Below are positions 8,383-54,034 of a stretch of 63,108 nucleotides of DNA, one piece after another. A program made the translations under genes and the position numbers. Under the pieces are notes generated by a model that saw only the letters and a list, made by a program, of their open reading frames with translations, was not told where the DNA came from and ran no database searches. The first letter of the stretch is position 1. The number at the start of each line of letters is the position of its first letter. The DNA is from Syntrophomonas sp. (GTDB lineage Bacteria > Bacillota > Syntrophomonadia > Syntrophomonadales > Syntrophomonadaceae): contig JAENYG010000020.1 in NCBI GenBank assembly GCA_016841875.1, positions 1-63,108 of the forward strand, in the 5' to 3' direction.

Positions 8383-8733
8383 TCGCGAAATTCATGATTA
8401 AAATAAACAATAATCAACTATAAAATGTTACTGATAACGGCAAATATATCGCATCCAAGATGGAATAATATACCCGTTCACCCTACTTGAGATTTCGACC
8501 CCATGCAGAATAAAGCAGGAATATCATCAGAGCAGAAAATATTAAGCGGCTATAGAATTTAACCAATAATAAAATCAATCAACCAGCAATATATTAAAAC
8601 CATCACCCTGCTCTAACAATGTGAAAGAAAGTACTTGGTGCGAATCGATTGATTTTTCAGTTGCTTTCACGGGATAATGGTAATACATAAGATCGAGCAG
8701 GAAAAAGCTAACAATGGAAAAGGGGTGAAGACT
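8383..8733. other. Intergenic region without recognised gene
   Basis: About 350 AT-rich bases before the PAS protein. A weak pairing TGAAAG/CTTTCA (about 8621-8667) is present; no promoter of good quality and no known RNA motif were recognised. Confidence 0.35.
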
Positions 8734-10620
8734 ATGCCAGGGGAAAATACTGAGTATCAAATTCTAATGGACAGTATTGAGAATCCGGTAATAGCACTGC
8801 AGGAGGATCTGAAGGTCATATATTGCAACCCTGCTTATGCTAAACAAGTCGCTCGGCGGGTAGATGAAATAGAAGGGCATCAATTGCTGGAAATATTTCC
8901 GGAGAATACAGGAAATGCATCTCATCTGGCCTACCTGGAGGTACTTGAAACAGGCAAGTCAACAACTGCTCAAAGTAAAATGGGAAATCAATATTTTAGT
9001 GAGCGGATATTTAGAACCCCGGTAGGAATAATATCTCTGGCTGATAACGTGGACAATCTCAAGCGCTGGGAGGAAGCAGTCGAATTTCTGACGACTGATC
9101 AGCGTGCGGTATTCGATGAAATCAATGATGCTGTTGTTATCCATGATGTAAATGACAACCGGATTGTGGATGTTAATAAAGCAGCCTGTGATATGTTTGG
9201 CTATGAACGAGAAGAGATGCTGCAGTTATCTATAGGGGACCTGACCGCTGATGAACCACCCTACAACCGGGACGACTTTTTGCGCTGGTTAAAAAAACCG
9301 GCTGAATTAAAAATTAAAAATATGGAATGGAAAGTCAGGGATCGATCTGGTCGTACCTTCTGGATTGAATTGAAATCCAAACGGATGAAAATTGGAGATG
9401 AAATACGAGTAGTTGCTGTGATTCAGGACATTACCCGTCGCAAGTATACCGAGAAAGAACTGCGGGAGGTGTATGAACGCTACGAGAGCCTGTTTGAAAA
9501 CCCAGCTGACCTGGTCTTTATCCATGATCTGGCCGGCAATTTCATATCGGTTAACCAGGCTGCAGAAAGAATAACCGGTTACTGGGGAGAAGAACTGGTC
9601 AAAATGAATATCCAGCAGTTGGCTAGCAGTGATAGTCTAAAATTGCTGCGGGGGTTCCAATACCAGAGGATGCCTCAAGATCAGAGCAGCAATTATGAAT
9701 TGGAGATTGTTACCAAGTATGATTCCCGTATATTTGTGGATGTCAACATCAGTCCAATTTATAAAGGTGGAAAAGCCACCGCAGTCCTGGGTATAGCTCG
9801 CGATATTACCCAACGAAAAATGAAGGAAGCTGCCTCAATCGAAACCGCCGAAAGTCTGGTTAGTTTCATCGATTACTTGCCAGATGCCACTATGGCTATT
9901 GACATGGAGGGTAAAGTAGTAGTTTGGAATAAGGCCATGGAGGAGTTAACCGAAATCAAGGCGGAGGATATGCTGGGTAAAGGTGACTATGAGTATGGAC
10001 TGGCGTTTTATAATAAGAGAAGACCGATTATGGTGGATCTGGTATTAAGACCAGAAGAGGTAAAACAGTATTATTCGATTGTAGAAGTAGATAAATACAC
10101 GATGATCAGTGAATTTGATACCCCTCATTTAAGAGGGGAAGGGCACTATCTATGGGGGCAGGCTATGCCCTGGTATGATAAACAGGGTAATTTGATTGGT
10201 GCCATTGAATCACTGCGTGATATCACTGAACGTTATAAAACCAGGCAGGCCCTCAAAGACGCTGAAGAGAAAGTAAGGCAGGATCGCAAATGTCTGTTTA
10301 CCCTGATTGATAATCTGGAAGGTGCAATTCTTACCTGCAATCTGCATGGCAGGATAAGGATGGCTAATCTAAAATTTGGCAATTTATTGGGATACGGGGT
10401 GGAAGAACTGCCGGGTATGAATATTGCAGAGATTATTGAGGATAGCAGCGACCAGATTATAGGCGCTAAATTACTGGATGTTCTTCAGGCCAACGGTGCT
10501 AAAATCTATGATGTTCAATTAATTACCAAGGATGGTATACGTCAGGCGGCTAAAATCAAAATCAGGCCGGTATGGGAAGATGATAAAATTATCGGGTGTA
10601 TCATGCGGGCTGAAGAATAA
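8734..10620 (+). CDS. Multi-PAS sensor protein without output domain
   Basis: 628 residues made of about five PAS/PAC units: a divergent first one (residues about 8-115), then units around 120-240, 240-360, 370-510 and 515-628. PAC ends are visible as VAVIQDITRRK, VLGIARDITQRK and IESLRDITERY. There is no transmitter, GGDEF, EAL, HTH or sigma-54 activation module, and no membrane segment, so it is a cytoplasmic ligand or redox sensor that would have to act through a partner. The ATG at 8734 is preferred because GGGGTGAA is 9 bases upstream; a frame from 8677 lacks a site. A terminator follows at 10681. Confidence 0.8.
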   Translation: MPGENTEYQILMDSIENPVIALQEDLKVIYCNPAYAKQVARRVDEIEGHQLLEIFPENTGNASHLAYLEVLETGKSTTAQSKMGNQYFSERIFRTPVGIISLADNVDNLKRWEEAVEFLTTDQRAVFDEINDAVVIHDVNDNRIVDVNKAACDMFGYEREEMLQLSIGDLTADEPPYNRDDFLRWLKKPAELKIKNMEWKVRDRSGRTFWIELKSKRMKIGDEIRVVAVIQDITRRKYTEKELREVYERYESLFENPADLVFIHDLAGNFISVNQAAERITGYWGEELVKMNIQQLASSDSLKLLRGFQYQRMPQDQSSNYELEIVTKYDSRIFVDVNISPIYKGGKATAVLGIARDITQRKMKEAASIETAESLVSFIDYLPDATMAIDMEGKVVVWNKAMEELTEIKAEDMLGKGDYEYGLAFYNKRRPIMVDLVLRPEEVKQYYSIVEVDKYTMISEFDTPHLRGEGHYLWGQAMPWYDKQGNLIGAIESLRDITERYKTRQALKDAEEKVRQDRKCLFTLIDNLEGAILTCNLHGRIRMANLKFGNLLGYGVEELPGMNIAEIIEDSSDQIIGAKLLDVLQANGAKIYDVQLITKDGIRQAAKIKIRPVWEDDKIIGCIMRAEE

Positions 10621-11289: not shown

Positions 11290-12468
11290 GTGTTTATTCC
11301 AAATGGCAGATTTAGTATGATTAAGATACAAGAATTTATAGGGTTTGAAAGCAGCGGGCATAATATCTATGATACATTTGGACAGAAGGAGTGGCAGTTT
11401 ATGTATGCCATGCATTTTTATAGAATATATGAGACCACAAGGTCGATTGATCTCAATCAATTAGAAAGTGGTCTTCCTCGGAGTGGGCATAATTATTCTA
11501 GAACCGGTCTATCCAGGGTAAAAACCAAGTCCATACAGATGGAGGTTTTGCCCTTGCTGCTCAGGCTTGGAACTGGCACAGCAGAAAAAGACGGGCATTT
11601 TATGGAGCTAGAGGTACAGGCCAGGATTTATGATATCGGGGTCATAAGTATTTGCCTTAGTTATGAAAACCGTGCAGATGATAAGCTGAGTCTGGAAGAA
11701 CTGGCCTTGATATTCGCCGGGCAGGAAGGAATGGAAGCATTATTTGAGGAAAAGCTCAGGATTATACATTCTATTCTGAACATTTGTGTTAAAGGTCTGA
11801 TAATGGACAAAGAGTATTACGAAGATTACACCATCTACTATATCAACCAACCGTCCGAGATTAAAGATCCTGTGTCACTGCTTATGGGAGAAAAAACTGA
11901 TTTCAGTCCTCAAATCAAAGAACAGGTCTTAAGCAACCGGCTCAGTTACAGCAGCGAAGACTATGTAATAATAACCTGGGATACAGCTCTCATTTGTGAT
12001 CCGGAATCATCGAGCGATCTCAGGGATCTAATAGAATTTGCCAATGTGCAGCTGTTAGAACTGCGATACTATGATACTGAGTTGAGCAAGCACATGGATA
12101 AGATGTACGATGATATAGAGGTTGCCGATAAGAAGAGCCGATTCTGGCGATTTAGACAGTATCAGAATATCATGACTGCATTGATGGAACTTATAGCAGA
12201 CTTGACTGAGGTTACAGAGAAAATAGGCAACCTTATCAAAATCACCGAAGATGTCTATTATGCCCGGGTATATCAGACGACCTTGAAGGTTCTGCGCACT
12301 GCACAGTGGAACGACAGTGTAGAACGCAAGCTGCAGGTAATACAGCGAAATTATACTTTGCTGAGCAATGAAGTGAATGTGCGGCATTCCAATTTCCTGG
12401 AGTGGATCATCATTATCCTCATAGCCCTTGAATTTGCCTTTGCTATCCTGGAAGCGGTTCTGAGATAA
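11290..12468 (+). CDS. RMD1/DUF155 family C-terminally anchored membrane protein
   Basis: 392 residues. The C-terminus has the RMD1 (DUF155) signature: a long helical region, then NYTLLSNEVNVRHSNFLEW directly before a membrane helix of about 20 residues (about 368-388). The family covers yeast Rmd1 and many bacterial proteins; it is tail-anchored and its molecular function is unknown. The start is uncertain: a GTG at 11290 has AAGGA 4 bases upstream, and an ATG at 11317 is the alternative. A terminator follows, so it is probably monocistronic. Confidence 0.8.
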   Translation: MFIPNGRFSMIKIQEFIGFESSGHNIYDTFGQKEWQFMYAMHFYRIYETTRSIDLNQLESGLPRSGHNYSRTGLSRVKTKSIQMEVLPLLLRLGTGTAEKDGHFMELEVQARIYDIGVISICLSYENRADDKLSLEELALIFAGQEGMEALFEEKLRIIHSILNICVKGLIMDKEYYEDYTIYYINQPSEIKDPVSLLMGEKTDFSPQIKEQVLSNRLSYSSEDYVIITWDTALICDPESSSDLRDLIEFANVQLLELRYYDTELSKHMDKMYDDIEVADKKSRFWRFRQYQNIMTALMELIADLTEVTEKIGNLIKITEDVYYARVYQTTLKVLRTAQWNDSVERKLQVIQRNYTLLSNEVNVRHSNFLEWIIIILIALEFAFAILEAVLR

Positions 12469-12525: not shown

Positions 12526-12560
12526 AAAGCTTGCCTTTGCTGCCAGAGCAGGCTTTATTT
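12526..12560 (+). terminator. Probable terminator after the RMD1-like gene
   Basis: Stem AAAGCTTGC/GCAGGCTTT (one G-T pair), 13-base loop, then ATTTG. Confidence 0.6.
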
Positions 12561-13203
12561 GTGCTACAATTCATTTTCTCCTAGATTTTTAGATTCAAAC
12601 AATACACATGTACTATTAAACTGCTTTTATAGCAGCTAACCCCATTGCAAATCTGCTTACCAACCATATCAACTTTACACTCTAGTAATAAGAACTTACT
12701 ATCTTCATATCCTTGGAAAACGATTGGTGCTGTTAGTTACCTCAAATACTAAGGCGGAATAAAGACTCTATCTGATAGGATTACTGTATTGCATTTTGTT
12801 GTGCAATTTTTGTGATACTGGATTTAGAAATCTTTTTTTCGGTTGATTTACTGACTGATTGATAATCATAAACTAACTAACATATCACATACATAACAGG
12901 GTGAAATACTATCAAACGTGCCCTATATAGCTCTATTAAAATAATCCTTGACATTGCATATAAAGGCAAAAAAAGTGAATAATTCAGTGGTAAGAAACCT
13001 GTTATAAATCCTGCAATAGTTTTTGCAAAAAATTGCAAAAACTATTGCAGGATTTTTCTTAAGAAGTCGGGCTAACAACTAATGCGTCTTAGACAGTTCT
13101 AAAGAGCTGTCGGATATTGTACTTCTTTGTATAAATTTGCAAAGCAATTTTGAAATAGTGATCTTCGAAGGCTATTCGCAGGAGTTTCTTAGTTATTAAT
13201 GTA
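12561..13203. other. Long regulatory intergenic region upstream of the fatty-acid operon
   Basis: About 640 bases without a credible gene. It holds an ATTGCA/TGCAAT hairpin at about 12787-12812, a TTGACA at 12948 without a matching -10, the 22-base palindrome at 13007-13054, and a TTTGCAAAGCAATTTTG motif near 13136-13152. Recurrent TTGCAA words suggest binding sites for the operon's regulator (inference). Confidence 0.4.
13007..13054. promoter_or_regulatory. 22-base perfect palindrome, candidate enhancer site or terminator
   Basis: Two perfectly complementary 22-base arms (13007-13028 and 13033-13054), each carrying CCTGCAATAGTTTTTGC or its complement, flank an AAAA loop; TTTTTCTT follows. 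Its centre lies about 175 bases before the -24 element of the sigma-54 promoter, a normal distance for an NtrC-family enhancer. It could equally be a rho-independent terminator or a small mobile repeat. Confidence 0.5.
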
Positions 13204-13219
13204 TGGCACGTATGTTGCA
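13204..13219 (+). promoter_or_regulatory. Sigma-54 (RpoN) -24/-12 promoter
   Basis: TGGCAC, five bases, TTGCA: an exact match to the sigma-54 consensus, with GG and GC 10 bases apart. It lies about 90 bases before the first gene of the acyl-CoA operon, whose last gene encodes a sigma-54 activator. Confidence 0.85.
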
Positions 13220-13309
13220 ATTTGTAATTGTCAGGTAATCATTAGAAGGGAGTGAAAAACGAGTTATACCAAGTTAATGCAAATATATAGTTGTTTAGGA
13301 GGTATTGCT

Positions 13310-14476
13310 GTGGACTTCAGTCTAAGTGATCAGGAACAGATGCTGCATGATACGGTGTACAAGTTTGCAAAAAATGAATGGGAACCCAGAACGCTTGAGA
13401 TTGACAAAGAAGAAAGATTTCCTATGTGGTTATGGGATAAGTTTAAGGAAATGGGCTGGTGCGGTCTGATGATACCTGAAGAATACGGTGGAGCAGGACT
13501 GAGTTTGTTGGAGCTGTGTACTATGTTTGAAGCAGCAGCCCATGCTGGGGCTGATATTGGTACATGCCTGGCCTGGGGGACTCACTGTACTATTGGAAGC
13601 TTGCCGATCGTATTTTGCGGAAATGAAGAACAAAAGAAGAAATATTTGCCCCGCCTGGCCAGTGGTGAATGGATCGGGTGTTTTTGCCTTACAGAACCTA
13701 ATGTAGGTTCAGATGCAGCGCACGTTCAGTGTACAGCAACTCGTAAAGGTGATCATTATGTTTTGAACGGAACCAAGATGTTTATTACTAATGGACCTAA
13801 TGCCGACCTGGCGGTTGTATTCGCGGCTACTGATAAATCCAGGGGGGCCAAAGGAGTATCAGCATTTATAGTTGAGCGTACTTTTCCTGGATACAGTGTA
13901 GGTAAACGCCTGGACAAAATAGGCATGCATGGTTCAGAAACATCGGAGATTATTTTTGACAATTGTATTGTTCCGGTTGAGAATCGTCTGCTGGAAGAAG
14001 GAGAAGGATTTACCAAAGTAGGGGCTAAAATACTTGAGTATGAAAGAAATTCACTGGTGGCAATATGGACGGGTAACTTAGGGTATAATTTTGATTTATC
14101 TGCTAATTATGCCAAACAGAGAACCCAGTTCGATTATCCTATAATCAGGTTCCCTCAGATCAGGGAAAGACTTGTTCATATGAAGTTGGATTATGATATT
14201 TCAAAATTATTGATGTATAGAGCTGCATCAAAGAAAGACAGCGGCAAGGATGGCCCCCTGGAAGCTACAGAATATAAAATATTTACCGGACAGGCCAGTC
14301 AGCGAAGTGCCTCTGAGGCCATTCAGATTCACGGTGGATATGGACTTATGCGTGAATATAAAGTTGAGCGTTCTTTAAGGGACGCCAAACTGGTCCAGAT
14401 AGGTGCTGGCACAGAACAGGTTTTAACTGAATTGGTTGCTAGATTGATAACAGATACCAGGTCATTGATTGGGTAG
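13310..14476 (+). CDS. Acyl-CoA dehydrogenase, isovaleryl/long-chain type active site
   Basis: 388 residues, normal for FAD-dependent acyl-CoA dehydrogenases that introduce a 2,3-double bond and pass electrons to Etf. Family blocks are CFCLTEPNVGSDA, NGTKMFITNG and IHGGYGLMREY. The usual catalytic Glu of the C-terminal EGT is replaced (IGAGT, Ala366), as in isovaleryl- and long-chain acyl-CoA dehydrogenases, where the base is in helix G; here E245 in LEYERNSL sits at that place. So it may act on a branched or otherwise different acyl-CoA than its two neighbours. Start is GTG at 13310, 6 bases after AGGAGGT. First gene of the sigma-54 operon. Confidence 0.92.
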   Translation: MDFSLSDQEQMLHDTVYKFAKNEWEPRTLEIDKEERFPMWLWDKFKEMGWCGLMIPEEYGGAGLSLLELCTMFEAAAHAGADIGTCLAWGTHCTIGSLPIVFCGNEEQKKKYLPRLASGEWIGCFCLTEPNVGSDAAHVQCTATRKGDHYVLNGTKMFITNGPNADLAVVFAATDKSRGAKGVSAFIVERTFPGYSVGKRLDKIGMHGSETSEIIFDNCIVPVENRLLEEGEGFTKVGAKILEYERNSLVAIWTGNLGYNFDLSANYAKQRTQFDYPIIRFPQIRERLVHMKLDYDISKLLMYRAASKKDSGKDGPLEATEYKIFTGQASQRSASEAIQIHGGYGLMREYKVERSLRDAKLVQIGAGTEQVLTELVARLITDTRSLIG

Positions 14477-14511
14477 GCTCTCTAATTATTAATAGAAAAG
14501 AGGTAGATAAT

Positions 14512-15822
14512 GTGAACCGTTGGCAAAAAATGTATGAAGAAAAACTGACTACTGCTGAAGATGCTATGAAGTTAATTAATAATGGTGACCAGATTGTTGC
14601 TCCCCTTGGAAATGGAACCCCAAGAGGGTTGGGAGATGCCCTGGCTGAGCTGGTTAAAACCGGAAATTACAGGGATACACGTTATTTTTCTGGTTTTAAC
14701 TATAATTGTCCTAACCTGTGTACTAAAGAAGTAATGGAAAAATTCCATTATGAGGATGGATACAGCACTCCTATTTCACGTGCACTTACAGCCGATGCGG
14801 TAGGGGACTTCCATCCCATAAAACTATCGGATTGTCCCCGGCTAATTGGGGATGAAAGAAAATTTAATGTGGTTATGATGACTGTTTCACCTATGGATGA
14901 ACACGGGTTTTTCAGTACCGGTGTTTTTGTGGATTTTGCTTATCCAGTTGCGAAAAGAGATTATCCCAAAAAAATAATTGTCGAGGTTAATAACAATTAT
15001 CCCAAAACTCATGGAAATAATCATCTGCATATTTCAGAAATAGATGCTGTCATCGAAAATGATTGGAAGCTGTTTACAGTTCCGGCAGCAGCCCCCAATG
15101 ATAAGGACAAAGCTATTGCTGCTCTTATTGCTGAACAGATACCTGATGAAGCATGTATACAGTTGGGAATTGGCGGGATACCAAATGCAGTAGGAAAAAT
15201 GTTAGAAAGCAAAAAAGACTTGAGCGTTCATTCGGAAATCATTTGTGATGCTATGCTGGATTTATATAACAAGGGCGTAATAACCAGTAAAAAGAAAACT
15301 TTCATGCCGAATAAATGGATATGTACATTTATAGTGGGCAGTCAGGACCTTTATGATTTTGTTGCGGATAACCCCCTGGTTGAAAGTCATCCCACAGATT
15401 GGGTAAATGACCCCCGGGTAATAGGTTTGAATGATAACCTGATGTCTATAAATAGTGTGCTGGAAATTGATTTAGCTGGTCAGTGTATTTCCGAATCAAT
15501 CGGCTACAGTCCTTATACTGGTATCGGTGGACAAGAAGACTTTGTAACTGGAGCCTGGTATTCAAAAGGAGGAAAATCTTTTTTAACCACCTATTCTACC
15601 TATAGGGATAAGGAAGGAAACCTGCAGTCTAAAATTGTTCCCACAGTTAACGGTTTTGTGGGAATAAGCAGATGGAATTCACAATACCTGGTCACTGAAT
15701 ACGGCATCGCATACATTAAAGGTAAAACCATGAGCGACAGGGTCAAGGCAGTAATAAATATAGCTCATCCAGATTTTAGAGACTGGTTGTTGTCTGAGGC
15801 CAAGAGAATGAGGTTCTGTTAA
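14512..15822 (+). CDS. Acetyl-CoA hydrolase/CoA-transferase family protein
   Basis: 436 residues, full length for class I CoA-transferases of the 4-hydroxybutyrate/butyrate:acetyl-CoA group. Visible marks are QLGIGGIPNAVGKML (the CoA-site Gly-rich loop), VHSEIICDAMLDL with the likely catalytic E242, and the C-terminal GIAYIKGKTMSDR block. It would move CoA from acetyl-CoA or another acyl-CoA to the free acid, activating it without spending ATP. Start is GTG at 14512 after AGAGGTAG. Placement between dehydrogenase genes supports a role in substrate activation; the acid is not determined by sequence alone. Confidence 0.88.
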   Translation: MNRWQKMYEEKLTTAEDAMKLINNGDQIVAPLGNGTPRGLGDALAELVKTGNYRDTRYFSGFNYNCPNLCTKEVMEKFHYEDGYSTPISRALTADAVGDFHPIKLSDCPRLIGDERKFNVVMMTVSPMDEHGFFSTGVFVDFAYPVAKRDYPKKIIVEVNNNYPKTHGNNHLHISEIDAVIENDWKLFTVPAAAPNDKDKAIAALIAEQIPDEACIQLGIGGIPNAVGKMLESKKDLSVHSEIICDAMLDLYNKGVITSKKKTFMPNKWICTFIVGSQDLYDFVADNPLVESHPTDWVNDPRVIGLNDNLMSINSVLEIDLAGQCISESIGYSPYTGIGGQEDFVTGAWYSKGGKSFLTTYSTYRDKEGNLQSKIVPTVNGFVGISRWNSQYLVTEYGIAYIKGKTMSDRVKAVINIAHPDFRDWLLSEAKRMRFC

Positions 15823-15858
15823 AGAAAGTTTATTAGATTGGAAAGAGCAGGTGAGTAG

Positions 15859-17001
15859 ATGGATCTCAGGCTGAGCAAAGAAGAGGAACTGATACAGAAG
15901 GCAGCGCGTGATTTTGCTGACAAGATGATAGTTCCTATTGCAGAACTTATAGATCAGGATAACCACATACCAGAAGAAATCTTTGAAGCACTCGGAGACC
16001 TTGAGATGTTCGGTATACCATTTCCAGAAGCATATGGTGGCGGAGAGGCAGGTTATTTGAGTTACATCCTGGCTATAGAAGAATTGGCTAAAGCTTGTGC
16101 CGGAATTGCGGTAGTTATATCTGTTAATTCGGTAGGATTATCTGTAATTAATGCCTTCGGTACGGAAGAACAGAAGAAAAAATATATGCCAGAATGTATG
16201 ACTGGTAAAAAAATATTTTCGTTTGCATTTACTGAACCTGGAACCGGTTCAGATCCCAAGCAATTAAGCTGTACGGTAACCAAAGCGGGGGATAGTTACA
16301 TCTTGAATGGAAACAAACGTTTTATTACTAATGCTGGTTTTCAAGGTCCCATGGTGGTAATTGCTAAAGATAGTGAAACAGATAAAGCAAGTGCATTTGT
16401 GATTGATAAATTCTGCGAGGGGTATTCCCTGTCCGAACAATGGAACAAAATCGGAGCTCATGGAGGCCCCTTATATGACGTCTATTTTGATAATGTGAAG
16501 ATCCCTGAAGGTAATGTGCTGGGTAGAAGCGGTGAAGGTTTATGGGTACTTAAAGTAGCTATGATTTACGGGAAAATTGGCTTATCCGGACTGTTTCTGG
16601 GTACAGCCAAAGCAGCCTATGAAGAAGCCTTAGCTTATGCAAAACAGAAAACTCATCGCGGTCAACCCATCGGGGCAAAATTCCAGCATATCCAGATATC
16701 TATAGCTGATATGGCCATGAAATATAATGCCTGTCGCTGGTCTGCTTATAATCTTGGGTTTACGGCGGATACGGTTAAAGACCCCAATCAGCTGCTTAGG
16801 GAAGCGGCCTTAACGAAGGTGTTCGTTTCAGAAACAGCCGTTGAAATCTGCAAAATAGCTATGGGAGTTCACGGTTCTTATGGATTGATGAAAGACTATA
16901 AGATTGCCAGGTTATGGGGTGACGTCATTATTGGACCACAGGTTGAAGGGACTTCTCCGCTGCTAAAAATACTGGCAGCTGGTATTATTCTGGGTGATTA
17001 A
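15859..17001 (+). CDS. Acyl-CoA dehydrogenase, short-chain type
   Basis: 380 residues. Blocks FAFTEPGTGSDPKQ, NGNKRFITNAG, GVHGSYGLMKDYKIARLWGD and VEGTSPLLKIL are present, so the canonical catalytic Glu (in EGT) is kept, as in butyryl-CoA dehydrogenases. Oxidises an acyl-CoA to the enoyl-CoA with electrons to Etf. ATG at 15859 follows GCAGGTGAG. It is clearly a tandem paralogue of the next gene (shared openings and C-termini), suggesting duplication with specialisation for different chain types. Confidence 0.92.
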   Translation: MDLRLSKEEELIQKAARDFADKMIVPIAELIDQDNHIPEEIFEALGDLEMFGIPFPEAYGGGEAGYLSYILAIEELAKACAGIAVVISVNSVGLSVINAFGTEEQKKKYMPECMTGKKIFSFAFTEPGTGSDPKQLSCTVTKAGDSYILNGNKRFITNAGFQGPMVVIAKDSETDKASAFVIDKFCEGYSLSEQWNKIGAHGGPLYDVYFDNVKIPEGNVLGRSGEGLWVLKVAMIYGKIGLSGLFLGTAKAAYEEALAYAKQKTHRGQPIGAKFQHIQISIADMAMKYNACRWSAYNLGFTADTVKDPNQLLREAALTKVFVSETAVEICKIAMGVHGSYGLMKDYKIARLWGDVIIGPQVEGTSPLLKILAAGIILGD

Positions 17002-17050
17002 TATCATTAATTCTGGATTTATTCTTAACTAATAATAAGGAGACGATATT

Positions 17051-18184
17051 ATGGAATTTAAACTGAGCAAAGAACAGGAACTTATACAAAAGACAGCCAA
17101 AGAGTACGCTGAAAAGGCGATTGAACCTTTAGTCAACCAGATTGAAGATGAGAATAGGGTGCCTGATGAGGTAATAGAAGGTTTGAGGGAGCTGGGATTG
17201 CTATGTCTTCCGGTTGAAGAGAAGTATGGTGGAGCAGGTGCCGGCTTTGAAGGTTTTGTGGTCGGATTGGAGCAGTTGGCCCGTGTTTCTGGCGGGGTAG
17301 GCATATTTGTGTCTGTGGTTATGCTTGGTACTTCTACTATTGCTGTTCACGGAACAGAAGAACAAAAAGAAAAATATCTGACTGGTACATGCAAAGGCAG
17401 TTGGATTCCATCAGTTGCAATGACTGAACCTGATGGAGCTGATCCAAGAATGTTGAAGACAACTGCTAAAAAAGATGGGGATCATTTTATATTAAATGGA
17501 ACCAAGCGGTTTATAACCAACACCAACTTTGCAGGACCAATGGTTGTATTCGCAAAAGACGCAGATACCGGAAGAATCAACGGTTACATTGTTGACAAAT
17601 TCTGTGAAGGGTATTCTATATCTGAACCCTGGGATAAGCTGGGGAGTAAAGGAGCTTTTCTATCTGACGTTTATTTAAAAGATGTGAAAGTTCCCGTAAG
17701 TAATATGTTGGGGACTCCGGACGAGGGGTTTCAAACCTTGAAAGTTACTATGGCTATGGGCAAAATTGGCCTTTCCGCTATATATCTGGGGAATATACTG
17801 GCGGCGTATGATGAAGCTTTTAATTATTCAAAAGATAGAATTTATTTAGGGAAGCCCATCTCACAATTCGAAAGTGTAAGAAATTCTATTGTTGATATCG
17901 CTATGAAGTATGAAGCAGCTAAATTAATGACTTACCGGATTGGGTATCTGGCAGATAATACCGCCAATAAGGCCAAATTGGTAAAAGATTCTGCTATGAC
18001 TAAGATATTTGTAACTGAAACAGCCGTAGATGTTTCGCGCATAGCTATGAATGTTTTTGGTTCCTATGGTTTAATGAAAGACTATAAGATGTCCAGGATA
18101 TATCGTGATGCCATCGTGGGACCTCAGATAGAAGGAACGGCCAATCTCTTGAAAACGGTAGTTGCCACCGACATGTATAAATAA
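17051..18184 (+). CDS. Acyl-CoA dehydrogenase, short-chain type (tandem paralogue)
   Basis: 377 residues. SVAMTEPDGADPR, NGTKRFITNTN, VFGSYGLMKDYKMSRIYRD and IEGTANLLKTV mark the family, with the catalytic Glu of EGT retained. In the first block the common GTGSDP is changed to DGADP, as also seen in some subfamilies, near the FAD/substrate site. ATG at 17051 follows AAGGAG. Likely works with EtfAB encoded immediately downstream in the same operon. Substrate range cannot be read directly. Confidence 0.92.
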   Translation: MEFKLSKEQELIQKTAKEYAEKAIEPLVNQIEDENRVPDEVIEGLRELGLLCLPVEEKYGGAGAGFEGFVVGLEQLARVSGGVGIFVSVVMLGTSTIAVHGTEEQKEKYLTGTCKGSWIPSVAMTEPDGADPRMLKTTAKKDGDHFILNGTKRFITNTNFAGPMVVFAKDADTGRINGYIVDKFCEGYSISEPWDKLGSKGAFLSDVYLKDVKVPVSNMLGTPDEGFQTLKVTMAMGKIGLSAIYLGNILAAYDEAFNYSKDRIYLGKPISQFESVRNSIVDIAMKYEAAKLMTYRIGYLADNTANKAKLVKDSAMTKIFVTETAVDVSRIAMNVFGSYGLMKDYKMSRIYRDAIVGPQIEGTANLLKTVVATDMYK

Positions 18185-18201
18185 ATTTTAGTTGCAGAAT
18201 G

Positions 18202-18245
18202 GGGGGGGAGTTTCCGGAGGAATATAATCTTTAGAAACTTCCCCC
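18202..18245 (+). other. Hairpin within the operon, between dehydrogenase and etfB
   Basis: GGGGGGAGTTTC (from about 18203) pairs with GAAACTTCCCCC (18234-18245) with one mismatch, around a 19-base loop. No T-run follows, so it is not a good terminator; it may protect or process the mRNA, or attenuate transcription partly. Confidence 0.5.
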
Positions 18246-18284
18246 ATCCATTATTTAAGAAATACAAGGGAGGTTGGTTATAAG

Positions 18285-19040
18285 GTGAATATAGTAGTTG
18301 CCATGAAACAAATACCGGATTTACAGCAGGTTAGAATTCGGAACCGTCAACCGGTTCTGGATGGTGTTCCAATGACCTTCGGAAGTATAGATAAAAATGC
18401 ACTGGAGACGGCACTTCAGCTCAAGGAAGCTGCGGGTGGTAATGTGATAGTAATATCAGCCGGAACAGAAGAGCTGGAAGATACTGTGAAAGAGGCTCTG
18501 GCTGCTGGTGCTGACGAGGCTTATCTGGTGTTGGATGACGAATTGGAAAACATAGAAAGTTCAGTAAGTGCACATCTGCTAGCTGAGCTTATAAAGCAGA
18601 TAGAAAATATAGGGATAATACTCTTTGGAGAAGGCAGCGGGGACAACTATTCCGGTCAGGTAGGGCCACGAATTGCTGAGATATTGGGATTGCCTGAAGT
18701 TGGATATGTATGTGATATTGAGCTGGAAGACAGCAGGGTCAAGGTTACACGTTCACTGGAAGATTGTGAAGAAATAGTTAGAGTTAATCTCCCGGCAGTA
18801 TTAACGATTATGGCAGATATCAATGAACCACGCATACCCTCGGTTACTCAGATATTGAAAGCTGGTAAAAAACCCAAACAAATATTAGAGGTTGAGGATA
18901 TCGGTCTCGATCTAAAAGGAGATAAAAAAATTATAACCCTGAGCAGTCTGGCTCCTGAAAATAAAAGAAAACAGATAACGGTGAAAAATGGAGAAGAACT
19001 GGTAGATGCTTTACTAACAGAAGGCGTAATCAGGAGGTGA
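18285..19040 (+). CDS. etfB: Electron transfer flavoprotein beta subunit
   Basis: 251 residues, typical EtfB length. Opens with IVVAMKQIPD, has the GSIDKNALETALQLKE and AAGADEAYLV segments, and the VGPRIAEILGLP block that lies at the nucleotide site. Forms a heterodimer with EtfA and takes electrons from the acyl-CoA dehydrogenases encoded just upstream; in syntrophs electrons then go to a membrane Fe-S oxidoreductase and menaquinone. Start is GTG at 18285, after GGGAGG. The etfA ribosome site lies across its stop codon. Confidence 0.93.
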   Translation: MNIVVAMKQIPDLQQVRIRNRQPVLDGVPMTFGSIDKNALETALQLKEAAGGNVIVISAGTEELEDTVKEALAAGADEAYLVLDDELENIESSVSAHLLAELIKQIENIGIILFGEGSGDNYSGQVGPRIAEILGLPEVGYVCDIELEDSRVKVTRSLEDCEEIVRVNLPAVLTIMADINEPRIPSVTQILKAGKKPKQILEVEDIGLDLKGDKKIITLSSLAPENKRKQITVKNGEELVDALLTEGVIRR

Positions 19041-19047
19041 TTTAAAA

Positions 19048-19986
19048 ATGGCGGGAATAATGATATACAGTGATAAAGATGAGTTATCCTTTGAACTGCT
19101 TTCGGCAGCAAACCTGATATCCGGTCATACCGGCCTACCGATAAATGCTGTATGCATAAACAATAGTGAGCAGGCTCAAGGGCTGGCAGCCAGAGGAGCG
19201 GAAACCTATCTGATCAACAATGAGGCTATAAATTTGGCAGATTCCAAGGGAATGGCTTCGGCTCTCGAAAGTGCAGCCATCCAGCTTGATGCTAACATTA
19301 TCCTCTTATCCTCAAACAGAAGGGGAAAAGAACTTTCCGGGAGATTGGCTGAAAAACTGGCAGCCGGCTGTTTGACTGATGTAGGCAGTATAAAAGTTAA
19401 CCGCGATAAAATAGAATGTATGCGCAACTCGCTGGGTGGTGCTGTTCTTGCTGCACAGATGATAACAAGTGATTATAAAATAATAGCTGTTGAGTCCAGA
19501 GTTTTTGAAGAAATGGCAGTTGGGAAAGAAGGCCCCATAAATAACCTGAAAATAGAAGCACAACCTGCAGAACTAGAAGTTCTTGAAGAAAGGGCTAAAG
19601 TGGGAGATACAGCAAACATAGAATCAGCAAATATTCTGGTAGCTGTAGGCCAGGGACTCAAGAGCGAAAATGATATGCTTATTATTAAAGAGTTGGCTGA
19701 AGCGCTAGGGGCTGAAATAGCATGTTCCAAGCCGGTAGCTACTGATAAAAAATGGCTTCCTGAGGAAAGAATCATCGGACTTTCCGGCAAGAAATGCAAA
19801 CCTGATCTGGCTGTTATACTGGGGATATCCGGGCAGGTACAGTTTACTGTTGGTATTCGGGATGCCAGGACCATAGTAGCCGTCAACACTGATGAAAATG
19901 CGCTTATTATGCAAATGGCAGACTATATCATGGTAGCAGATTTACATGACCTGGTACCGGAAATGACTAGAGCGCTCTTGGTTTAG
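19048..19986 (+). CDS. etfA: Electron transfer flavoprotein alpha subunit
   Basis: 312 residues. The C-terminal FAD domain is visible: RIIGLSGKKCKPDLAVILG, then IRDARTIVAVNTDENA and YIMVADLHDLVPE, the usual end of EtfA. The N-terminal domain resembles EtfB. ATG at 19048 lies 9 bases after AGGAGGTGA, which overlaps the end of etfB, so the subunits are made together. Carries the FAD that receives electrons from acyl-CoA dehydrogenases. Confidence 0.93.
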   Translation: MAGIMIYSDKDELSFELLSAANLISGHTGLPINAVCINNSEQAQGLAARGAETYLINNEAINLADSKGMASALESAAIQLDANIILLSSNRRGKELSGRLAEKLAAGCLTDVGSIKVNRDKIECMRNSLGGAVLAAQMITSDYKIIAVESRVFEEMAVGKEGPINNLKIEAQPAELEVLEERAKVGDTANIESANILVAVGQGLKSENDMLIIKELAEALGAEIACSKPVATDKKWLPEERIIGLSGKKCKPDLAVILGISGQVQFTVGIRDARTIVAVNTDENALIMQMADYIMVADLHDLVPEMTRALLV

Positions 19987-20146
19987 AAGCGGTTAAACGG
20001 GGTTAGACTGTAGAAATACATTTGCATTTAGAATTTCCTAAGGCTATATATCAAGAATTAGTGAAACTCATTATGTTAAAGATATTAATGATATACTGGG
20101 GAAAAGATATTGTAGAATTCTATCGAATATTTGTAAGGAGGTGACC

Positions 20147-21232
20147 GTGCTGGACATTAAGACTACTGACAATATGCTGGATAAATCGTTTCATGAGATT
20201 ATTATCGAAAGTATTGGCACCGGTATTTTGGTAACCGATTTAGAGGGGAAATTAATAATCTTCAACAAAGCTGCCGAAGAGATGTGGGCATATCCTAAAG
20301 AGGAGGCTCTGGGTAATCCTTTTTTTAACTGTATAGCGGAATTAGATAGACCCAGAATGGAGAAAACATTCTTTTATGTGGTCAGGACGGGACGGTCGCT
20401 TCAGGCCAGCGAAGCGATAATGGGTAACCGGGCCGGGAAAACGCTCTATATTAATGCCCATGCTTCGCTATTCCAGGATACAACCGGAAACAAAATGGGC
20501 GTAGTTATGCTGACTGAAGATATAACTGAAAAGAAAAAATTGGAAGAAGAGGTGCAGCGGGCAGATAGACTTGCAGCTTTAGGACAGCTTTCTATGGGTT
20601 TGTCACATGAGATAAGAACCCCGCTGGCTACCATAAAGGCTTTAACGACTTTAGTTAAGACAGATACTTTGGTAGATGAAAGTTTGCGAAAACAATTAAA
20701 TATGGTTATTAATGAAGTAAACAGATTAGACAGTTTGTGTCGACAATTGCTCAACTTTGCCGGGAAATCGGATTTGCATGTTGAAAAAATCAGTATAAAA
20801 GACATGCTTGATCGGGTTTTATTCATGGGAAGGCTGAACCACTTAGAGATTCCGGTAAAAATCAAAGAAGACATTCAGCCTGATCTGCCGGAAATATCAG
20901 GAGATAAAGAAATGCTGACTCATGCTTTTATAAATTTGCTTATTAATGCTATGGAGGCTGTCAACGATAGCGGTAATAAAGGAGTAGTTACCATAAAGGC
21001 ATTTCGGGATGGAAAATGGAATGTAATAAAGGTTAGTGATACCGGTATAGGTATACCACCTGGAGAGTATGTGAAAATATTTGACCCATTTTATACTACC
21101 AAGGAAAATGGAACCGGGCTCGGCTTATCTATGGTTCATACAATAATTACTAAACATGGTGGTCATATAAATGTAGAATCCAGGGAAGGTATAGGGACTA
21201 CATTTACAATAAAACTGCCTGTGGAAGGGTAG
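20147..21232 (+). CDS. Cytoplasmic PAS-domain sensor histidine kinase
   Basis: 361 residues. A single PAS domain (about residues 15-130, opening IIIESIGTGILVTDLEGK) is followed by the HisKA H-box GLSHEIRTPLATIKAL and a HATPase domain with INLLINAMEAV (N box), VSDTGIGIP (G1) and GTGLGLSMVH (G2). No membrane segment, so it senses an internal signal, plausibly a metabolite or redox state. The GTG at 20147 is preferred because AAGGAGGTG lies just before it; the GTG at 20141 is part of that site. It pairs with the next gene, 11 bases downstream. The family resembles NtrB/AtoS-type kinases. Confidence 0.9.
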   Translation: MLDIKTTDNMLDKSFHEIIIESIGTGILVTDLEGKLIIFNKAAEEMWAYPKEEALGNPFFNCIAELDRPRMEKTFFYVVRTGRSLQASEAIMGNRAGKTLYINAHASLFQDTTGNKMGVVMLTEDITEKKKLEEEVQRADRLAALGQLSMGLSHEIRTPLATIKALTTLVKTDTLVDESLRKQLNMVINEVNRLDSLCRQLLNFAGKSDLHVEKISIKDMLDRVLFMGRLNHLEIPVKIKEDIQPDLPEISGDKEMLTHAFINLLINAMEAVNDSGNKGVVTIKAFRDGKWNVIKVSDTGIGIPPGEYVKIFDPFYTTKENGTGLGLSMVHTIITKHGGHINVESREGIGTTFTIKLPVEG

Positions 21233-21243
21233 GCATTTAACCC

Positions 21244-22614
21244 ATGAAACCATTTAACATTCTCATAGTAGAAGATGATAGCAGTATGGCTTTTGTTCTG
21301 GATGAATGTCTTAAAAGAGAACAATTTACTACTATGCTGGCTGATGATGGTCAGAAGGCTGTTGATCTATTCAAGAGGGAATTTCCTGATTTAGTTTTAC
21401 TGGATTTAATAATTCCTAAAATAAGTGGGATGCAGGTTCTGGAGCACATCAAAGCTATTAACCCTAACATTGCAGTTATAATCCTTACCGGGAATGCGAC
21501 CATTAATACAGCAGTAGAGGCAATGAAAAAGGGAGCCTATGATTTTCTTACCAAACCTTTTGAAGTAGAGGAATTGCTGCTGACCGTAAAAAAGGGGCTG
21601 GATCATACTCGGGTAAATCAAGAAAATCAAAACGCCAGGAATCATTCAAAAGAACTGGGCAGTATTATGTATAAAACGGAAAATTCGTCAAACATGAAGA
21701 GAATGGATGAATTAATTGAGAGTATTGCCTCATGTGATGACACAATACTTATTGAAGGAGAAAGTGGTACCGGAAAAAGTCTTATTGCCAAAGAGATTCA
21801 TAATCTTAGCAACAGGAAAGATGGTCCATTTGTACGTATCGATTGTGCAGCACTGCCGGCCAATCTTATCGAGAGCGAATTGTTTGGTTATGAAAAAGGG
21901 GCCTTTACCGGTGCTGTTAATAGAAAACCGGGGAAAGTCGAAAGAGCTAATGGAGGGACACTTTTTCTAGATGAAATAAGCACCCTTGATATTAATGGCC
22001 AGGCGGCATTACTTAGTTTGATTCAAAACCGAGAATTTGAAAGAATTGGGGGCAATAGTCCTCAAGCTGTAAATACCAGAGTTATAGCTGCCAGCAACCA
22101 AAATTTAAAACAAATGGTAAAAGACAAATTGTTTCGTCATGATCTATATTACCGGCTTAATGTATTTACCATTGACTTACCATCTCTTAGAGAACGTATA
22201 GAAGACATTATTCCGTTAGCATATTTTTTCATAAACAAATACAAGCAGGATGATGACCGGGATATTATATTGTCGACAGAAGCAGCTATGAAAATAAAAC
22301 ATTATGAATGGCCAGGGAACATAAGAGAATTAGAAAATGCTATTAAGCATGCTTTGATTTTGTTAAAAGATGATGAGCTTATTACCAGTGCTCATCTTCC
22401 TCTGGAATTAAACCAGGGATATTGGGCAGTTAGAGACAAAAACCTTGGCTTGAAGCAGATACTTGAGAGGACAGAAATAAGTGTAATTCAACAGGCTTTA
22501 TTGGAAAATGATCTGAATGTCAAGGCATGTGCCAAAGCGCTTAAAATGTCACAGAGAACGCTGTATTACAGAATTGACAAACTTGGTATTGGGCTTCCGG
22601 TAAAAGTTGAATAA
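21244..22614 (+). CDS. Sigma-54-dependent response regulator (NtrC/AtoC family)
   Basis: 456 residues in three modules: receiver with phospho-acceptor D54 (VLLDLIIPK), AAA+ ATPase with Walker A GESGTGKS, the sigma-54-contacting loop GAFTGA, Walker B GGTLFLDEI and the WPGNIRELENAI block, then a Fis-type helix-turn-helix (NVKACAKALKMSQRTLYYRI). It remodels sigma-54 RNA polymerase after phosphorylation by the upstream kinase. Since a consensus sigma-54 promoter stands at the head of this very operon, autogenous control of the acyl-CoA genes is the likely job (inference). Confidence 0.93.
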   Translation: MKPFNILIVEDDSSMAFVLDECLKREQFTTMLADDGQKAVDLFKREFPDLVLLDLIIPKISGMQVLEHIKAINPNIAVIILTGNATINTAVEAMKKGAYDFLTKPFEVEELLLTVKKGLDHTRVNQENQNARNHSKELGSIMYKTENSSNMKRMDELIESIASCDDTILIEGESGTGKSLIAKEIHNLSNRKDGPFVRIDCAALPANLIESELFGYEKGAFTGAVNRKPGKVERANGGTLFLDEISTLDINGQAALLSLIQNREFERIGGNSPQAVNTRVIAASNQNLKQMVKDKLFRHDLYYRLNVFTIDLPSLRERIEDIIPLAYFFINKYKQDDDRDIILSTEAAMKIKHYEWPGNIRELENAIKHALILLKDDELITSAHLPLELNQGYWAVRDKNLGLKQILERTEISVIQQALLENDLNVKACAKALKMSQRTLYYRIDKLGIGLPVKVE

Positions 22615-39655: not shown

Positions 39656-40536
39656 AAGAACTGTTAGTACTCAGCGGCAAAGGAGGAACTGGTAAAACAT
39701 CCCTAACTGCTTCGTTTGTCTGCCTGGCAGAGAAAGCTATAGCCTGTGACTATGATGTTGATGCCTCTAACCTGCCGATTCTCCTGAAACCTGTTGATTC
39801 CGAGGGGCACGAGTTTAGTGCCGGTTTAACTGCTAATTTGGATAAGGATATCTGTATTGATTGCGGTTTGTGCCGCGATCTTTGCCGATTTGATGCCATC
39901 AGCATCGAATATGAGATTATAACCTTATCCTGTGAAGGTTGCGGCTTTTGTTCTGAGGTCTGCCCGGTAGATGCCATAAGCATGTCTGAAAGACCTTCTG
40001 GAAGATGGTTTGCGAGCATGTCGGATATAGATGGGAAAATGGTTCCCCTTTTTCATGCCGAGTTGAGACCGGGAGAAGAAAACTCCGGGAAACTGGTAGC
40101 CCAGGTTAAAAGCTCAGCCCGCCAAAAGGCTAAAGAAGAAGGGTATTCTTTATTGATATCAGATGGCTCGCCCGGAATCGGTTGTCCGGTCATATCTTCT
40201 CTGGTGGAAGCGAATCTGGTCGTTATAGTGGCTGAACCCAGTGTATCTGGCTTCCATGACTTAAAACGGGTGCGGGAATTACTGGCCTTAAGAGGAGTAA
40301 GAAGCACACTGCTAATTAACAAGTGGGATCTTAATCCTGAAGCATCAGAGGCCATGGAAAAATGGGCCCAGGAGTGTGATATACCCTGTGCGGGCCGGCT
40401 GCCCTATAGTTCGGAACTGGCTGCAGCTGTGGCCGTAGGCGAAGTTCCGGTCAGCAGGAAAGAACTGCATGACCTGATTTTGCCGCTATGGGAAAATATT
40501 GTGAAAACTCTGGAAAAACAAAACCAAATAAGTTAG
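39652..40536 (+). CDS. MinD-superfamily ATPase with inserted ferredoxin domain (second copy)
   Basis: 294 residues. GTG start overlaps the stop of the first copy. Walker A SGKGGTGKTS, DYDVDASN switch, inserted ferredoxin cysteines CIDCGLCRDLC and CEGCGFCSEVCP, and the DGSPGIGCPVISS block are visible. Homologous to the first copy, so the two probably form a heterodimeric ATPase, with the NifX-like protein and ferredoxin as cofactor or electron partners. Confidence 0.88.
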   Translation: MKELLVLSGKGGTGKTSLTASFVCLAEKAIACDYDVDASNLPILLKPVDSEGHEFSAGLTANLDKDICIDCGLCRDLCRFDAISIEYEIITLSCEGCGFCSEVCPVDAISMSERPSGRWFASMSDIDGKMVPLFHAELRPGEENSGKLVAQVKSSARQKAKEEGYSLLISDGSPGIGCPVISSLVEANLVVIVAEPSVSGFHDLKRVRELLALRGVRSTLLINKWDLNPEASEAMEKWAQECDIPCAGRLPYSSELAAAVAVGEVPVSRKELHDLILPLWENIVKTLEKQNQIS

Positions 40537-40570
40537 GTACTTGGTACCAGGTACCTGGTACCTAACTTAT
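40528..40570. repeat. GGTACC palindromic repeat, copy 1
   Basis: Arms ATAAGTTAGGTAC and GTACCTAACTTAT enclose a centre with two GGTACC words and a CAGGTACCTG palindrome. Starts inside the last codons of the second ATPase gene; can fold as a strong hairpin. Confidence 0.7.
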
Positions 40571-40608
40571 TATTGTGCAGAAATTTATGTTTGAGGAGAT
40601 GGCAAGTA

Positions 40609-40776: not shown

Positions 40777-40871
40777 TATACGGAAGAGGAGAGACTGTTT
40801 ACAGATACTTCTATTCGTTGGAATAGAGAATACTGGATTGATAGCAGTCACTTTTCAGCTACCTTTCAAAT

Positions 40872-40912
40872 AAACAAATAAGTTCGGTACCAGGTACCAA
40901 ACTTATTTGTTT
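40872..40912. repeat. GGTACC palindromic repeat, copy 2
   Basis: Perfect 19-base arms (40872-40890 and 40894-40912, AAATAAGTT, then GGTAC) around a 3-base centre, closely related to copy 1 on the other side of the ferredoxin gene. Confidence 0.75.
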
Positions 40913-40999
40913 ATATGAGGATACTTGATACATTACCGGCACTTTTTAGTTACTATTCCAATACAATGATAATAAGATGGTTTGCAAGGGGTAAAACAT

Positions 41000-53902: not shown

Positions 53903-53909
53903 TCTGACA

Positions 53910-53972
53910 GAAGCAGGGGGACGTTCTTTTTGCTTCCTCATTTAGGAAGCAAAAAGAACGTCACCCTGCTTC
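53910..53972. repeat. REP-like palindromic repeat
   Basis: GAAGCAGGG-GACGTTCTTTTTGC-TTCCT pairs with its complement (about 28 base pairs, one G-A mismatch) around a CATTT loop. Its GGGGGACGTTCT start resembles the widespread clostridial REP family. It can also act as a terminator for the MerR gene. Confidence 0.75.
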
Positions 53973-54034
53973 TTGTTGTAGGCTTTTATTACACTATGGT
54001 TTACAATTAAGTCTATAAATGAGAGGTGATAATG

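Follow-up and report, generated by a model that had tools for sequence, protein, structure and literature searches.

A 50-bp inverted repeat with perfectly matched arms lies upstream of a fatty-acid oxidation operon in Syntrophomonas sp., and comparison of sequences indicates that it is probably a double enhancer of the AtoC type serving the operon's own sigma-54 activator. The window analyzed here is the whole stretch of 63,108 nucleotides of contig JAENYG010000020.1 (assembly GCA_016841875.1; the genome is designated G000), and its relevant features are listed in Table 1.

Table 1. Features of the palindrome region and the downstream operon (positions of the window)
Feature	Coordinates	Strand	Remarks
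Block conserved with the syntenic intergenic region of G004	12752..12823	.	Contains W1
Proposed distal activator site W1, TTGCATTTTGTTGTGCAA	12789..12806	.	TTGCA-N8-TGCAA
Possible activator site W2, TTGCATATAAAGGCAA	12954..12969	.	TTGC-N8-GCAA
50-bp palindrome, proposed double upstream activating site	13006..13055	.	23-nt arms; spacer AAAA at 13029-13032
Proposed activator site 1, TGCAATAGTTTTTGCA	13012..13027	.	TGCA-N8-TGCA
Proposed activator site 2, TGCAAAAACTATTGCA	13034..13049	.	Mirror of site 1
Sigma-54 promoter, TGGCACGTATGTTGCA	13204..13219	+	Exact consensus match; unchanged in G003, same type in G004
Acyl-CoA dehydrogenase, operon gene 1	13310..14476	+	GTG start; ATG at 13277 also open
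CoA-transferase of the acetyl-CoA hydrolase/transferase family	14512..15822	+	
Two more acyl-CoA dehydrogenases, electron transfer flavoprotein beta and alpha	15859..19986	+	
PAS sensor histidine kinase	20141..21232	+	Best NCBIfam match AtoS, below cut-off
Sigma-54 activator response regulator, Fis-type HTH	21244..22614	+	Proposed ligand of the palindrome

Structure of the palindrome

The arms of the palindrome, 13006-13028 and 13033-13055, are 100% complementary, and 46 of the 50 bases are symmetric, the central 4-nt spacer not being self-complementary. The earlier note had described a perfect 22-base palindrome and, at 13007-13054, a 48-base element of perfect dyad symmetry; the perfection holds for the arms, which are 23 nt long, but not for the AAAA between them. 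Perfect 23-nt arms with a spacer of 0-10 nt are expected 1.6e-8 times in the window (1.8e-7 if the base composition of the intergenic region is assumed), which places the palindrome far beyond chance. Folded as RNA, the element reaches -35.1 kcal/mol (z -7.7), a value equalled by none of 200 shuffles. Four TGCA cores begin at 13012, 13024, 13034 and 13046, at spacings of 12, 10 and 12 bp. Each arm is thus built on one TGCA-N8-TGCA dyad, and the two dyad centres are 22 bp apart. Since the dyad of the second arm is given by that of the first through symmetry, the pair counts as one independent motif and not two.

A genome-wide search with the half-site had been suggested earlier, and the arm used as a search word gives no other site: at up to 3 mismatches, G000 contains only the element's own two arms, which rules out a dispersed repeat. 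Exact arm matches among 54 genomes of the family were confined to G000 and G003, one per arm, and the full arm was rejected as a regulon search word (some match at up to 2 mismatches in 10 of the 54). The exact four-core pattern was likewise found only in G000 and G003 among 63 genomes of the class searched. TGCA-N8-TGCA is the more useful search motif. A known RNA family was also rejected, as the 12 Rfam matches at E <=1 (11 to microRNA families and one to rli43) all fell far below gathering scores.

Eight hairpins were counted in the window (arms of at least 12, at most 1 mismatch, spacer of at most 8), and TGCA occurs in the palindrome only. Other hairpins were noted in passing. Two long ones centred on GGTACC, with arms of the AATAAGTT type, lie at 40527-40571 and 40866-40918; the same type appears at 1258-1286 of locus L034, ahead of a different sigma-54-like site in G000, and these hairpins are probably a small dispersed hairpin element. 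A near-perfect 30-bp hairpin at 53909-53973 has no aligned counterpart in the best G003 alignment. A small hairpin, GACAGTTCTAAAGAGCTGTC, is located between the palindrome and the promoter (13084-13112) and is one base shorter in G003.

Promoter and operon

TGGCACGTATGTTGCA matches the sigma-54 consensus exactly and is the sole site in the window that fits it with at most one mismatch. The palindrome centre was measured at 173.5 bp before this promoter, in agreement with the roughly 175 bases to the -24 site estimated earlier; this distance of 174 bp falls within the approximately 100-250 bp that typically separate a sigma-54 enhancer from the promoter downstream of it. The operon spans 13310-22614 and encodes three acyl-CoA dehydrogenases, a CoA-transferase, EtfBA, a PAS histidine kinase and a sigma-54 activator. 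The kinase scores 304.3 bits against NCBIfam AtoS, for which the cut-off is 646. For the regulator, AtoC is the second-best match (403.9 bits, cut-off 714), slightly below PEP_resp_reg (412.6 bits, cut-off 502.6), and BLAST gives 41% identity with E. coli AtoC. As it falls short of the curated NCBIfam cut-off, the regulator is described as AtoC-like and is not classed as AtoC itself.

About 840 bp of AT-rich sequence separate the operon from the upstream gene 11290-12468, which encodes a protein of 392 aa without a Pfam match. By eye, a gene for a similar 392-aa protein also adjoins the operon in G003 and G004, and in G004 it is accompanied by an apparent relative of the PAS protein encoded at 8677-10620.

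Recurrence and specificity of the TGCA dyad

The TGCA dyad is not restricted to the arms. The earlier note had placed further TTGCAA words at 12787-12812 and 13136-13152. The latter does contain TTGCAA; the former holds TTGCAT and GTGCAA, which together form the TTGCA-N8-TGCAA dyad of W1. The form TTGC-N8-GCAA was tried first and has 62 copies in G000, 2 of them in the present upstream region. TGCA-N8-TGCA, despite its higher copy number (117 vs 62), was preferred because W1, the two arms and G004 all contain it. Its density of 117 per 3.97 Mb corresponds to an expectation of 0.015 per 500 bp.

Within 500 bp upstream, TGCA-N8-TGCA is absent from all 26 other exact sigma-54 promoters of G000, which lends further support, at the level of sequence, to the reading that the element serves the operon's own activator. 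When any two TGCA words 10-14 bp apart were accepted over the same distance, only one of the 27 exact promoters qualified, that of the present operon. The stricter TTGCA-N8-TGCAA has 4 copies in G000, 7 in G003 and 6 in G004; one copy in G000 and one in G004 precede the present operon, with P of ~5e-4 and ~8e-4 per 500 bp, values that differ from those of a blind test since the motif was picked after inspection of the sequence. Of these 17 loci, 16 were checked for sigma-54 promoters within 600 bp: an exact one follows only at the present operon, in G000 and in G004, and two further loci (L146 and L148) have a site with one mismatch. The arms' own form, TGCAA-N6-TTGCA, has 7 copies in G000, 2 of which are the arms. 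No sigma-54 promoter (at most 1 mismatch, within 600 bp) was found at 4 of the 5 other copies, one of these four, C33, having been checked through the overlapping TTGCA-N8-TGCAA locus L145.

Comparison with related genomes

In a regulator search of named genomes, the nearest named relatives of G000 were two Syntrophomonas metagenome-assembled genomes. They contain the only two close loci, G003 and G004; other relatives showed at most 50% identity. Among 63 genomes of the order, close regulator orthologues at E <=1e-125 occur in three: G000, G003 (97% identical) and G004 (66%).

The G003 counterpart of 12953-13500 is 95% identical. None of the 46 arm positions is substituted, compared with 10 of 88 in the adjacent flanks, where 5 gaps are also found (Fisher P 0.015, gaps left out). 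Conservation is nearly equal to that of the arms at 13111-13309, where 3 of 199 positions are substituted. G003 retains the palindrome and W2, the latter with its end words preserved and 2 of 16 bases different, and lacks W1. The region 12560-12950 (~400 bp, including W1) is absent from G003 or unalignable there, between flanks of 85% and 95% identity.

The neighbourhood in G004, read by eye from translations, is syntenic: a similar upstream gene is followed by a shorter operon that ends in the kinase and regulator genes and has the sigma-54-type promoter TGGCACGAATTTTGCA. The long palindrome is absent from the upstream region of G004, which contains a single TGCA-N8-TGCA. Positions 12752-12823 form the sole significant alignment between the intergenic regions of the window and G004 (local score 24; shuffles 12.2 +/- 1.4, with 0 of 500 reaching it). 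The TTGCA-N8-TGCAA dyad stands 155 bp before the -24 element in G004 and 415 bp before it in the window. The best intergenic alignment between G003 and G004 was not significant, being equalled by 84 of 500 shuffles. As G004 lacks the palindrome and G003 lacks W1, no single site is common to all three genomes; at least one TGCA-N8-TGCA at enhancer distance is present in each of them, though at differing positions, and the dyad may be conserved with the regulator across the three genomes compared.

Dyads suit any dimeric protein, and the palindrome might be bound by a different dimeric regulator, such as a repressor or a nucleoid protein, instead of the operon's activator. Against this, the motif is confined to the present operon among the 27 sigma-54 promoter regions, and it is found upstream of the operon in all three genomes with a close copy of the regulator. 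A foreign ligand is accordingly considered very improbable.

The hairpin as a possible terminator

The earlier note remarked that the T-run after the palindrome leaves a terminator reading open, and this was borne out: the stable hairpin is followed immediately by the tail ATTTTTCTT, which is identical in G003, and the element passed the terminator scan. Its sole role could then be that of an intrinsic terminator, in which a + strand 23-bp hairpin with a U-rich tract shields the operon from transcripts originating from the gene at 11290-12468 or from an undetected small RNA. The folding energy and z score given above are in keeping with such a role. On the minus strand the tail contains few T, so the terminator-like element is directional. 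Moreover, perfect hairpins with T-runs occur upstream of other sigma-54 promoters of the genome, at L016 (16 bp), L019 (12 bp) and L034 (10 bp), and the L016 hairpin is located closely downstream of the stop of the upstream gene. The present palindrome, however, lies ~540 bp past the stop of its upstream gene, and a GCAGGC hairpin is closer to that gene in both the window and G003; in the window it is a weak one (z -1.2). Neither the TGCA dyads nor their reappearance at 12789-12806 and in G004 would be explained by a terminator. On balance, termination as the only function is regarded as unlikely.

Two observations are neutral here. The G003 arms carry no base change at all and thus say nothing on the upkeep of pairing, and at the equivalent place upstream in G004 both the palindrome and any terminator-like site are missing. 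A double role as enhancer and terminator is possible. An attenuator of the sigma-54 transcript was rejected because the hairpin is upstream of the promoter.

The L016 locus has an arrangement of its own. The upstream gene is directly followed by the 16-bp perfect hairpin with T-run (1321-1356), and closer to the sigma-54 promoter of what appears by eye to be a hydroxyacyl-CoA dehydrogenase operon lies a TTTTGGC/GCCAAAA dyad; hairpin and dyad are likely a terminator plus enhancer pair.

Inversion of the spacer

The spacer is AAAA in G000 and TTTT in G003, between identical arms. The change is read as one inversion, which is simpler than four transversions. It was seen in the palindrome only, among the 5 of the 8 window hairpins with a listed G003 counterpart, and suggests that the orientation of the spacer is under no strong constraint. 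In yeast, template switching is described as homogenizing perfect inverted-repeat arms and inverting their spacers, where the arms exceed 9 bp and the spacer measures 2-5 bp (PMC8604942). The present case resembles the AA/TT example reported in that work, in that the arms are intact and the spacer is replaced by its own reverse complement; the yeast cases presented there are in coding DNA, whereas that of Syntrophomonas is in a bacterial regulatory region and has 23-bp arms. Template switching could explain the perfect symmetry.

Such a process might even sustain a perfect inverted repeat without any present function, as the flipped spacer between identical arms and the absence of the palindrome from G004 would allow. 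Template switching equalizes the arms and permits them to drift jointly, yet the arms have not drifted while their flanks have, in the proportions given above, and the common TGCA-N8-TGCA motif would find no explanation. A functionless repeat is therefore held to be highly unlikely, and the enhancer reading is retained.

Similarity to the AtoC site of Escherichia coli

AtoC of E. coli is described as activating atoDAEB together with sigma-54 and as binding, upstream of that operon, to an inverted palindrome of 40 bp (PMC3118216). The atoC-atoD interval of E. coli K-12 contains CTATGCAGAAATTTGCACAGTGCGCAATTTTCTGCATAG, in which 18 of 20 pairs are symmetric and whose centre lies 103 bp before TGGCACTCCCCTTGCT. 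Its cores are three TGCA and one CGCA, with a TGGCAC promoter downstream; these cores are a reading of the sequence made in the present work, and not a claim of the account of the site in PMC3118216. The Syntrophomonas element shares this design: it is a long inverted palindrome (50 bp, as against about 40 bp) whose TGCA cores stand ahead of a fatty-acid operon with an exact sigma-54 promoter. Both operons concern short-chain fatty acids, include a CoA-transferase and adjoin genes for the regulator and kinase. Among 26 sigma-54-like sites (25 of them listed) from 18 of the 58 regulator-search loci and E. coli, at least 18 of 20 symmetric pairs were found only at the E. coli and G003 sites, and each of these two has TGCA cores; the site ranked after them had 15 pairs and no TGCA.

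Differences between the two systems are also clear. The arms are perfect in Syntrophomonas and match in 18 of 20 pairs in E. coli, the cores are spaced by 12, 10, 12 bp as opposed to 10, 9, 10 bp, and the centre is 174 bp rather than 103 bp from the -24 element. The kinase-regulator pair stands at the end of the operon and not before it as in E. coli, and the organisms belong to different phyla.

In Clostridiales, activator sites are reported to lie mostly 100-250 bp before the sigma-54 promoter, often several per operon (PMC6615313). The present arrangement resembles the Fis-type enhancer-binding regulons described there, in which the regulator gene is usually near its target and some targets belong to butyrate metabolism. 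Unlike the TGCA dyad, the sites of 15 Clostridiales groups in that report are TGT/ACA inverted repeats with a 10-12-bp spacer, and its main text contains no match to the words palindrom, Syntrophomonas or AtoC. Predicted sigma-54 targets in Clostridia include acyl-CoA dehydrogenases and Etf subunits (PMC12316311). A PAS/sigma-54 regulator is named in PMC4324140, with no site given in that context. Open-licence full texts yielded no literature on Syntrophomonas together with AtoC, or with sigma-54, butyrate and promoter.

Proposed mode of action

The earlier suggestion that the palindrome may bind the operon's own sigma-54 activator gains support from the recurrence of the dyad at 12789-12806 and in G004, from the AtoC/AtoS-like pair and from the E. 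coli palindrome. We infer the following course of events. The AtoS-like kinase would sense a signal and phosphorylate the regulator (21244-22614). The 22 bp between the dyads correspond to about two helical turns, and two activator dimers could thus sit side by side on the same face of the DNA, one on the dyad of each arm, with W1 and perhaps W2 assisting as more distant sites. Once phosphorylated, the regulator would form its AAA+ ring at the palindrome, and a DNA loop of ~174 bp may bring it to RNA polymerase-sigma-54 at 13204-13219. Opening of this promoter would drive the acyl-CoA dehydrogenase/CoA-transferase/Etf operon. Template switching during replication may keep the arms identical, the inverted spacer of G003 being its likely trace, and the hairpin may also halt transcripts arriving from upstream.

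A broader proposal is more doubtful. An AtoC-type enhancer code might be shared across phyla, consisting of two abutting TGCA dyads, two dimers on one face, symmetry maintained by template switching and a free spacer. In such a code, four TGCA-like cores, each roughly one helical turn from the next, would be arranged alike in E. coli atoDAEB and Syntrophomonas. This is offered as a tentative possibility.

The palindrome and the regulator make up a concrete, testable candidate pair for a fatty-acid oxidation operon of syntrophic bacteria. The likeness to E. coli AtoC would tie enhancer architecture across two phyla. The flipped spacer illustrates cleanly, in a natural setting, how perfect symmetry may be preserved in long regulatory palindromes.
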